DNA from: a virus
Virus record (IMG/VR): IMGVR_UViG_3300006616_000011
Location: 1 to 41,575 of that record
DNA: 41,575 bases
Strand: one strand, 5' to 3'
Shown: piece after piece, positions 26,927-36,426 of the stretch
Layout: each line of letters starts with the position of its first letter
Position numbering within the stretch: position 1 is the first letter of the stretch
Program-made: the position numbers and the translations under genes
Notes under the pieces: model-generated
The model's input: only the letters and a program-made list of their open reading frames with translations
Database searches by the model: none
What the model was told of the DNA's origin: nothing

Positions 26927-27164
26927 GATAAAATCCTTTCAAAGATATGTGGCGTGGAAGTATACACTGCATATCCACTGAAAAGAGGCTCTTCTTATTA
27001 GGGTAGTCAGCTTTGCTTTGAGGATCGCCATCCTTTAAGCGCTGGGCCTATAATCGGAGGTAGTTCTTTATTGTGGTTTAGTGCTTTTTATAAGCATGTA
27101 CACGCAGTTAATGCCTGACAATGTACATGCCCTTAGTTTTATCTATGAAGATGTCCGTGTCAAG
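26927..27164 (-). promoter_or_regulatory. Structured leader between scaffold and coat genes
   Basis: No gene is seen in these 238 bp. In minus-strand sense, TTGACA follows the scaffold stop by 1 nt, but no good -10 box stands 16-18 nt away. A perfect 9-bp inverted repeat (TGTACATGC/GCATGTACA, arms 27094-27102 and 27122-27130, 19-nt loop) is followed by a 5-bp hairpin (TGCTT/AAGCA). A TATACT about 45 nt before the coat start could be a -10 box but has no -35 partner. The element could terminate, protect or process the transcript so that coat protein is made separately. Confidence 0.5.
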
Positions 27165-31842: not shown

Positions 31843-33444
31843 TTAATACCCGAAGTTAGGATCACTAGCTTGAAAACCTGTGCGTTGTGTCTCAGGGTTA
31901 AAGTCCCATAAGCTACTGCGTGGTCTGGTCATAATACCGTAGCGTAAAGCGTCATACAAGTGATCTTCTGCATGTGTGTCTACATCCTCTGGATTCTTTT
32001 TATCTAAAGGGATGCTAGGTATTTGTGCAATAGTGTTAGTACAGTTGTCCATAAACACTAGTCTAGGCTTTTCAGTAAATTCATCTACTTGTAAACGCCT
32101 ATGTATTTCGTTTTTTCCTGCGACACGTGAGCCTCTTGATCTGTCAGAGGGACGCCATCTACATCCCTTCATATTCATCTGCTCTGCCAAGCTAGGCCCA
32201 GTGTCGCCTCGGTTGTGCCATAAAGAGCTATCCAGCACACCGTATCTTATAGTACCGTCTTTTCTCTCTGCATCTAATATCATATCGGCTAGATCAGAAG
32301 CAGTAACTTTAGAAACATACATTTCACGATATACAACAAGTTGTTCGTCAGGTGCTACAGCAAACCAAAGAACACCAGTGTAACTACCATAACCGTAATC
32401 GCAAGCCCTAAACCTTGGCCAAGAGTCAGGTATCTCGAATTGCTCCATGATGTGTATAGTTCGATCAAACTCCGGAAAAGCTGCACCTTCATTAATGTCC
32501 CAGTTACCTTCAAGTAACTGTTTACGCTGATGCTCCGGCAACGAGAGTAGCATCGCTTCATAATCACCAGCTTCTGCCAAATAAGGATTATCAAAGAGCG
32601 AAGCCGGTATAAAGCGCCTTTTAAAAAGAGGCTGACCTTCTTTACTATGACCTTTAGGGAAAGTAATGGTTTCACCACTTTCAATATCAGTTGCCCAAAA
32701 CGACTTACCTGTTTTTGCAGGGTCGATAAACATTTTTTTAACCCAAGCATGTCCACTTCCTCCGGGGTTTGTTGTTGCTCTCATGTAAAGACCTAGATCA
32801 GAAGCATGAGCAGATCTCAAACGTGATCTCATATAGTTCCAAGCGTAGGGACTAGACCATTGAGTAAGTTCGTCAAATCCAATCCAGTTAAAAGCCTGTC
32901 CCTGATACCTGGTAACATCGGTATCTTTATCGAGATACGACATCCACAGACGCCCACCCTGTGGAGAAGTCCATTGAGATTTACGTTCAGACCATTTAAT
33001 ACCGGGTATAGCACGTGGATATAGTTCCTGACTCTTCTGTATTAATTCTCTTAATTCTTCTGTAGTATGACGTACAAGTAGACCACTAAAATTAGGATCA
33101 TTTAACCCATGAAGAGGGTCTGCAAGCATGGCATATGATTTTCCACCACCGGCTGCTCCGCCATATAGTACTTCGCGTTCTGATGCGCTAAGGAAGTATG
33201 TCTGAGGCCCAGCGTTGGGCTTGAACACAACGTCCATAGCCTCTTCCACATTATAAGGTTCAGCTTTTACTTGCGCTGGTACCGTTTGTCTGTCTTCACT
33301 TTTAACGGTAACGCTTATCTCTTCTTGTATCTGCGTAGGCTCCAACTCCTTGCGTTTCGAGTTTTTCGATTTCCGCAATGGTTTCTTCGAGCCAGTTGGC
33401 AAGCTTACGTTTAATTGTAGCTGCTCTTTTACGTTTTTGCTCAA
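31843..33444 (-). CDS. terL: Terminase large subunit
   Basis: The ATPase-nuclease motor that packages DNA. In numbering from TTG 33442-33444: Walker A GGAAGGGKS at 95-103, Walker B NWIGFDEL at 186-193 (Asp191, Glu192), coupling motif ATTNPGG at 223-229, and nuclease aspartates Asp349 (RACDYGYGS), Asp405 (GVLDSS) and Asp494/Asp498 (DHLYDALRYG). The domain is complete. The true start is unclear: a TAG lies two codons before this TTG and its Shine-Dalgarno site is poor. Other options are ATA 33328-33330 (GGAG about 9 nt upstream), GTG 33247-33249 and ATG 33235-33237, all before Walker A. It overlaps the gene at 33302-33724 by up to 143 bp. Confidence 0.88.
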   Translation of the reverse strand: MSKNVKEQLQLNVSLPTGSKKPLRKSKNSKRKELEPTQIQEEISVTVKSEDRQTVPAQVKAEPYNVEEAMDVVFKPNAGPQTYFLSASEREVLYGGAAGGGKSYAMLADPLHGLNDPNFSGLLVRHTTEELRELIQKSQELYPRAIPGIKWSERKSQWTSPQGGRLWMSYLDKDTDVTRYQGQAFNWIGFDELTQWSSPYAWNYMRSRLRSAHASDLGLYMRATTNPGGSGHAWVKKMFIDPAKTGKSFWATDIESGETITFPKGHSKEGQPLFKRRFIPASLFDNPYLAEAGDYEAMLLSLPEHQRKQLLEGNWDINEGAAFPEFDRTIHIMEQFEIPDSWPRFRACDYGYGSYTGVLWFAVAPDEQLVVYREMYVSKVTASDLADMILDAERKDGTIRYGVLDSSLWHNRGDTGPSLAEQMNMKGCRWRPSDRSRGSRVAGKNEIHRRLQVDEFTEKPRLVFMDNCTNTIAQIPSIPLDKKNPEDVDTHAEDHLYDALRYGIMTRPRSSLWDFNPETQRTGFQASDPNFGY

Positions 33445-33724
33445 TCTCTACTCTTTTCTTTAACCCTTGCCAGGATATGTACCTGTCTGTTTCTTTGCTT
33501 AACCAGTTAGCTACTGCCCTGTAACTATACTGCTTAAGATGTCGCTTTGCAAGTTCTAAAGCTTCAAGTTCTAAACTAATAGGTATAAGTAGTTTATCAT
33601 TATCTGGATCAACTTTGTAACCAAAAGGTACTACACCACTAAGACGAACAATTACGTGCCAATCTTTGCTATGAGGGCTTACAGGCTTAGGTAATTCCCA
33701 GAAGCCTAAATCTCTTTGAGGTAT
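33302..33724 (-). CDS. HTH-like packaging-region protein with an apparent ATA start (140 aa)
   Basis: Between the terminase genes a frame of 140 codons stays open and reads like a real protein: DLGFWELPKPVSPHSKDW, then VIVRLSGVVPFGYKVDPDND, a helix LELEALELAKRHLKQYSYRA, an HTH-like SYRAVANWLSKETDRYIS with WQGLKKRVE, and a basic coiled coil. I recall similar proteins beside terminases in marine phages, so it may bind DNA for packaging. It has no ATG, GTG or TTG start. It begins at ATA 33722-33724, exactly where the TAATG junction seen at seven other gene pairs would put ATG, with AGAAGG upstream. ATA start, a mutation or a sequencing change are all possible. Confidence 0.65.
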   Translation of the reverse strand: MPQRDLGFWELPKPVSPHSKDWHVIVRLSGVVPFGYKVDPDNDKLLIPISLELEALELAKRHLKQYSYRAVANWLSKETDRYISWQGLKKRVEIEQKRKRAATIKRKLANWLEETIAEIEKLETQGVGAYADTRRDKRYR

Positions 33725-34092
33725 TATTCGTTTGAACCTTCTTTTGGAGGCAGATAAAATACACCGCCACCAGACGATACTTCTACTTTATCCGTTTTAC
33801 CAAGCCCTGCACGGTCAAGTAAATCTTTTGCTGCAACCATCTTTTCTTTGATGCCTAGTTCTGTAGGATCAGATAGTGCACCTACCATAGCCATAGCTGC
33901 TTTAGGTGCAGTTTGTGCAAAGTAAGTACGTGTCTTCTTTCCTATTTCTTCTTGCAGTGCTTCTACAATAGCTGTAGTGCTAGACTCAGGTGCGTAACCT
34001 GCAAGTTTCTTAGCAGCCACAGCATCACCATTAGCCTCATCAAAGAGTATATCTAAGAAACGCTGTTGTTTTTCTGTTAAGTTACGTGCCAT
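33724..34092 (-). CDS. terS: Terminase small subunit
   Basis: A 122-residue protein starting MARNLTEKQQRFLDILFDEA, with AKKLAGYAPESSTTAIVEAL next, which is the helix-turn-helix opening of many small terminases. Residues about 75-105 are helical (DPTELGIKEKMVAAKDLLDR), and the last part (VSSGGGVFYLPPKEGSNE) is a flexible tail that in other phages contacts the large subunit. It would bind the packaging site and start DNA cutting. It is followed, with stop-start overlap, by the HTH-like gene and then terL. Confidence 0.8.
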   Translation of the reverse strand: MARNLTEKQQRFLDILFDEANGDAVAAKKLAGYAPESSTTAIVEALQEEIGKKTRTYFAQTAPKAAMAMVGALSDPTELGIKEKMVAAKDLLDRAGLGKTDKVEVSSGGGVFYLPPKEGSNE

Positions 34093-36045: not shown

Positions 36046-36169
36046 CTAAATTCCGTTGACATTTCTTATTATCAGGAGGACAAGAGAGCGGCATTACAAG
36101 TGATTGAGTACTACATGCAGTAGTTATACTTAGCAAAAATACAAATGCAAGCAATATATTAGTCTTTAT
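35942..36169 (-). CDS. Small lipoprotein candidate
   Basis: The frame runs open from GTG 36191-36193, but the better start is the ATA at 36167-36169, which gives (M)KTNILLAFVFLLSITTACS, an ideal signal with lipobox ITTAC (Cys at residue 18 of this version) and AGGT about 6 nt upstream. The GTG version has no Shine-Dalgarno site. The mature part (STQSLVMPLSCPPDNKKC, then QTLSLIGQEAAALQLMCM) has five further Cys. It could be an outer-membrane spanin or a surface protein. It overlaps the DUF1127-like gene by 11 bp at the ATA start and the 257-residue gene by 104 bp. Confidence 0.5.
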   Translation of the reverse strand: MKTNILLAFVFLLSITTACSTQSLVMPLSCPPDNKKCQRNLDAQTLSLIGQEAAALQLMCMDADLTDVLGDKCTK

Positions 36170-36326
36170 TATAGTACCTGTGTATAAGATCACCGCGAGT
36201 AACGCCTATATCCTGTAATTCTCTGTCTGTTAGGTTTTGTAGTAAGTATAAGTCTGCGCTTGCTTGTCTAGACTTGATGATTGATTTGTTTACGCCTGAA
36301 ATAGCTGAAAATACTTTTTTTAACAT
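36159..36326 (-). CDS. DUF1127-like microprotein (55 aa)
   Basis: A 55-residue frame with a good Shine-Dalgarno site (AGGAAAG, about 5 nt before the ATG at 36324-36326). Residues 30-46 (QNLTDRELQDIGVTRGD) match the DUF1127 signature 'L-T/S-D-R-E-L-x-D-I-G-[IV]-x-R-x-[DE]-I/L', and the start MLKKVFSAISG is basic and amphipathic. DUF1127 proteins are small bacterial proteins, some of which bind RNA or tune phosphate and stress responses. Such a gene within a phage structural operon suggests modulation of host RNA or metabolism. It is too short for many ORF filters. It overlaps the lipoprotein gene at the end. Confidence 0.72.
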   Translation of the reverse strand: MLKKVFSAISGVNKSIIKSRQASADLYLLQNLTDRELQDIGVTRGDLIHRYYNKD

Positions 36327-36426
36327 TGTTCTTTCCTATGATATGCCCAGCGATATTGCTGAACATGCATAGTTATACATATGTTAAAACTAATTACTTC
36401 AGATATTTTTGCATACCCGTTAGTCG

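Follow-up and report, generated by a model that had tools for sequence, protein, structure and literature searches.

A Frame without a Canonical Start between terS and terL

How might a phage gene be translated when its reading frame contains none of the canonical start codons? The question is raised by the packaging region of a 41.6-kb virus record, the whole of which was analyzed and is referred to here as the window. The record belongs to a marine podovirus of the HMO-2011 type, and its nearest isolate over the terS–terL module, within the phage collection searched, is Roseobacter phage CRP-207. The order on the minus strand is terS (33724-34092), the startless frame, terL (31843-33444), and the portal gene. 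The product of terS (122 amino acids; stop codon TAA at 33726-33724) matches terminase small subunits (PHROG_2538, E 4e-5) and the Pfam family Terminase_2 (1.4e-4), and TerS of CRP-207 is 81% identical to it. The product of terL, the terminase large subunit, matches Terminase_6N of Pfam (4e-9) and PHROG_979 (7e-59).

A preliminary description of the window had reported that seven gene pairs of the operon join as TAATG, that the junction after terS reads TAATA (33726-33722, minus strand), and that the frame beyond it (33302-33724, minus strand) runs for 140 open codons with no ATG, GTG, or TTG. Our inspection of the sequence bore this out exactly. The frame occupies the operon gap at 33445-33723, and of all frames of at least 60 codons on the strand of the window that bears the genes it alone lacks any canonical start. 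Two other stretches of the operon, 36046-36426 and 26927-27164, have no assigned gene.

The 3' end of the frame overlaps terL by about 143 nt (33302-33444), and the start codon of terL, TTG in the window and ATG in HMO-2011, lies inside it. The notion that TerL itself has no start, or is made by a +1 frameshift from the upstream frame, was rejected on two grounds: 219 of 225 relatives have TTG or ATG at a single homologous site, and the TerL frame is, in 97% of cases, blocked six codons upstream.

The Startless Frame Is a Conserved Gene

Searches with tblastn using the frame as query gave matches in 13 phage records, and hundreds of relatives were found in IMG/VR, which disposes of the idea, left open by the preliminary description in case homologues were lacking, that the frame had arisen by chance. 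The protein is under strong purifying selection: between relatives of the ATA class defined below, dN/dS was about 0.1 across codons 2-90, and in 77 disjoint pairs the value for codons 2-12 by themselves was 0.095. Moreover, 19 columns were invariant in an alignment of 47 diverse members of the family. The frame is thus a real, conserved gene that did not arise by chance, and neither an error nor decay into a pseudogene explains it: both are excluded by the number of relatives, by the presence of the same state in the isolate CRP-207, and by the selection result. In CRP-207 the conserved frame comprises 139 codons when counted from the ATA codon discussed below; the corresponding gene product, gp62 (UAW58952.1; L001:2756-2914), is annotated as a protein of 52 amino acids beginning at an internal ATG. 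We also note that a lysine codon of the frame, codon 78 (about 33494-33496 in the window), is invariably AAA (152/152), although AAG is common elsewhere.

An AUA Codon on the terS Stop Is the Probable Start

To locate the start we extracted 307 distinct junctions between terS and the downstream frame. In 187 of them no ATG or GTG is present near the N-terminus, and every one of these 187, hereafter the ATA class, has an in-frame ATA on the terS stop, overlapping TAA in 167 cases and TAG in 20. CRP-207 is a member of this class. The remaining 120 junctions have an ATG (103), an ATG further downstream past an inserted stretch or gene (14), or a GTG (3). When loci that had been fetched with a DNA pattern containing the upstream motif described below were excluded, the ATA class accounted for 129 of 249 junctions.

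In the window the ATA that overlaps the terS stop is at 33727-33725, the two codons sharing bases as ATAA. The following codon, also ATA in the window (33724-33722), is free to vary among the relatives, where ATA, AGT, GTA, GCT, AAA, and others are found; it is therefore not the start but merely codon 2. Judged from the junctions of the relatives, the start is most likely the ATA at 33727-33725, which would give a gene of 141 codons (33302-33727). The proposal in the preliminary description that ATA works as a start is thus supported as to the codon and corrected as to its place: the finding that a phage lineage conserves a non-canonical start is right in substance but shifted by one codon, and the interpretation as a whole is partly supported.

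The 187 members of the ATA class are related to one another, and their number is not a count of 187 independent events. The trees require two or three switches of state; in a clade test a single origin of the ATA was not rejected (p-AU 0.31), and we make no claim of independent origins. It should also be noted that, because terS usually ends GAA-TAA, the TerS C-terminus by itself accounts in part for an ATA at this point; two members with an ATG start carry the same ATA at the terS stop. A divergent pair of loci (L616 and L617) has an ATA at the terS stop and a whole frame devoid of canonical starts, and may represent a separate origin.

Could translation begin at another codon, such as the second ATA (or an ATT in its place), a TTG at +17, or an ATG near codon 85? 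Such a TTG is present in 29 of the 187 members and an ATG at +257 in 88, and the annotated gp62 begins at the ATG near codon 85. None of these alternatives is conserved, however; the second codon is ATA, GTA, AGT, GCT, or AAA, and the frame in the window offers no canonical codon at all. In addition, codons 2-12 are under purifying selection and the relatives with an ATG begin at the same N-terminus. We therefore consider initiation at another codon improbable.

The Putative Initiation Region Is Frozen

The sequence before the ATA, inside the 3' end of terS, is strongly constrained. A Shine–Dalgarno-like element, AAAGAAGG (33737-33744 on the minus strand in the window), lies exactly 9 nt before the ATA in all 187 members of the class, and the spacing holds in 129 of 129 when only loci found by protein search are counted and those fetched by DNA pattern are left out. 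The preliminary description had recorded an AGAAGG upstream of the frame; this is present and proves to be part of the family-invariant element, positioned with respect to the ATA at 33727-33725. The duplex predicted for the element of the window with the anti-Shine–Dalgarno sequence has an energy of -6.5 kcal/mol, stronger than for most genes of the window, and the mean predicted pairing was -7.1 kcal/mol in the ATA class as against -3.5 kcal/mol outside it.

The codons of terS in this region are frozen at synonymous positions. Where TerS ends in glutamate, that residue is encoded by GAA in 155 of 155 cases; the asparagine codon at -2 is AAC in 161 of 162, and the glutamate and lysine codons of the element, at -5 and -6, are GAA and AAA in 162 of 162 cases each. 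Nearly all other two-fold columns of terS show a second codon at a frequency of 4-50%; the exception is the AAA at codon -41 (135/135), which, like the lysine codon noted above, is invariant despite AAG being common elsewhere. Where the last residue of TerS is not glutamate in the ATA class, the third base of its codon is nevertheless A (CAA, GTA, or TTA), whereas among CRP-2-like relatives outside the class the last codon is mostly GAG (56/73). As for the stop codon, TGA is absent from terS in the ATA class, although it terminates 7 of the 41 genes of the window itself and is commoner there than TAG (3). A change of TAA to TGA in terS would create ATGA.

A second way to reach the frame would be ribosomal frameshifting from terS, as the preliminary description had suggested; a -1 shift would yield a fusion of TerS with the helix-turn-helix (HTH) protein. 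The gene is indeed in the -1 frame of terS, which stays open over about 20 upstream codons in the window and in many relatives; a Shine–Dalgarno-like sequence precedes the junction, and A_AAA is present in 96 of the 187 members. In 80 of the 187, however, stops block the -1 frame at the AAA codon or beyond it, and the frame opens at -16, -7, or -4; in 26 of these 80, no more than one to three codons remain open ahead of the terS stop. Nor is there a common slippery site: the base preceding AAA varies (A in 96, T in 61, C in 18, and G in 12), as does the last codon of terS (GAA, CAA, GTA, or TTA). No folded element was found at the junction, where folding of single sequences showed no excess (mean z 0.36) and the consensus structure was weak (-1.5 kcal/mol, compared with -0.1 kcal/mol for shuffled columns). 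Moreover, the relatives with an ATG begin the same protein separately, which argues against a fusion with TerS. Frameshifting is thus strongly disfavored, and we rate it marginally below initiation at another codon. Finally, only one base separates this junction from the operon's seven TAATG junctions, yet the probability that it stems from an error of sequencing or of the consensus, or that a point mutation has silenced the gene, is negligible: the same state is common to 187 distinct sequences from many samples and to a cultured isolate, and the frame is under purifying selection.

The Product Resembles a Domain Fused to TerL in Relatives

What does the gene encode? The window protein had no significant match in Pfam, in PHROGs, or among the sequences of the PDB. 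A clue came from CRP-3, CRP-212, CRP-235, and CRP-738, phages that are also of the HMO-2011 type, in which no separate ORF is annotated and TerL has an N-terminal extension. Alignment with hhalign of the ORF family to the N-terminus of the fused TerL proteins gave a probability of 98.2 (E 5.2e-14, 62 columns), as compared with a probability of 0.1 for a control alignment of the ORF profile to TerS, and a direct BLASTP comparison of one ORF with one fused domain gave an E value of 3e-8. The ORF thus appears to correspond to an N-terminal domain of TerL, of DNA-binding-like character, that is detached in the lineage of the window. From this homology and from its position, the product would be a separate packaging protein.

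The AlphaFold model of the product (mean pLDDT 78.6) has a beta hairpin, two helices, and a long helix, and together with the alignments is consistent with an HTH-like domain at about residues 30-91 followed by a long helix; the earlier guess of an HTH plus a coiled coil is thus plausible. Weak matches to HTH domains of the recombinase type suggest putative DNA binding: one fused relative matches PF07508 (found in serine integrases), at 0.008; two of five fused relatives match HTH_32, the better at 2e-4; and two members match the integrase family PHROG_95, the better at 4e-4. Foldseek returned no confident match in the PDB, the top hits including several large serine integrases at E about 1.

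The arrangement of the domain varies. In a Rhizobium phage it lies within a 227-residue ORF upstream of the annotated TerL. One metagenomic contig (L173, reverse strand) has the AUA-start ORF and TerL in a single frame of 623 residues; an indel within the overlap seems to have joined them, and the result could be a real fusion or an assembly error.

A Model for Initiation at AUAA and Its Relation to Known Systems

We propose that translation of this conserved gene between terS and terL very probably begins at an AUA sharing bases with the terS stop (AUAA), a stop/start overlap in which AUA would replace the AUG of the familiar AUGA. Ribosomes finishing terS, or 30S subunits bound at AAAGAAGG, would place the initiator tRNA on the AUA, where the C-A mismatch at the third position would make initiation weak and probably sensitive to IF3. 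Little of the protein would then be made, and its synthesis would be coupled to that of TerS. The product, a DNA-binding-like domain that relatives carry fused to TerL, would here act as a separate packaging protein. By this scheme the phage would use AUA for stoichiometry; that AUAA is a throttle, a termination-coupled, IF3-sensitive start setting the amount of the detached domain relative to TerS and TerL, is a proposal to which we give even odds.

Non-canonical AUA starts are rare and known mostly from single bacterial genes, and we found no phage example in the open-access literature searched. Conserved AUA starts are functional in Staphylococcus aureus, where AUA and AUU starts work at about 10-30% of the level of AUG (PMC13009471). 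The S. aureus genes infC and ccpN (PMC13009471) resemble the present case in having an AUA start, a strong upstream Shine–Dalgarno sequence, conservation across species, and a history of under-annotation, but they are bacterial rather than phage genes. In Streptomyces, the GTC start of sigR is repressed by IF3 and sets the ratio of the operon partners (PMC5472188). This would be a parallel in that a conserved non-canonical start holds down the level of one protein with respect to its operon partner; codon and protein differ, however, and dependence on IF3 has been demonstrated for sigR, whereas for the phage ORF it is our inference.

Among phages, a close counterpart is phage1322_53 (AFV50590.1) of Puniceispirillum phage HMO-2011, an ortholog that likewise stands as an ORF of its own between terS and terL; it is 43% identical to that of the window but has an ATG start overlapping terS and is annotated as a hypothetical protein. 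The homologous domain of CRP-3, CRP-212, CRP-235, and CRP-738 occupies the same position, between TerS and the TerL ATPase, but as an in-frame fusion to TerL with a canonical start; in the window it is a separate gene, apparently with an AUA start. The homology to TerL offers a first functional lead for an ORF that has so far been called hypothetical and that standard gene finders miss or shorten, even in the isolate CRP-207.

The putative AUA start is conserved across diverse marine phages, while sister lineages retain ATG, so that the ATA and ATG lineages offer a natural comparison between the two forms of one gene. Meanwhile, the fused domain of CRP-738, CRP-212, CRP-235, and CRP-3 and the split domain of the window's subgroup form a natural pair of their own.
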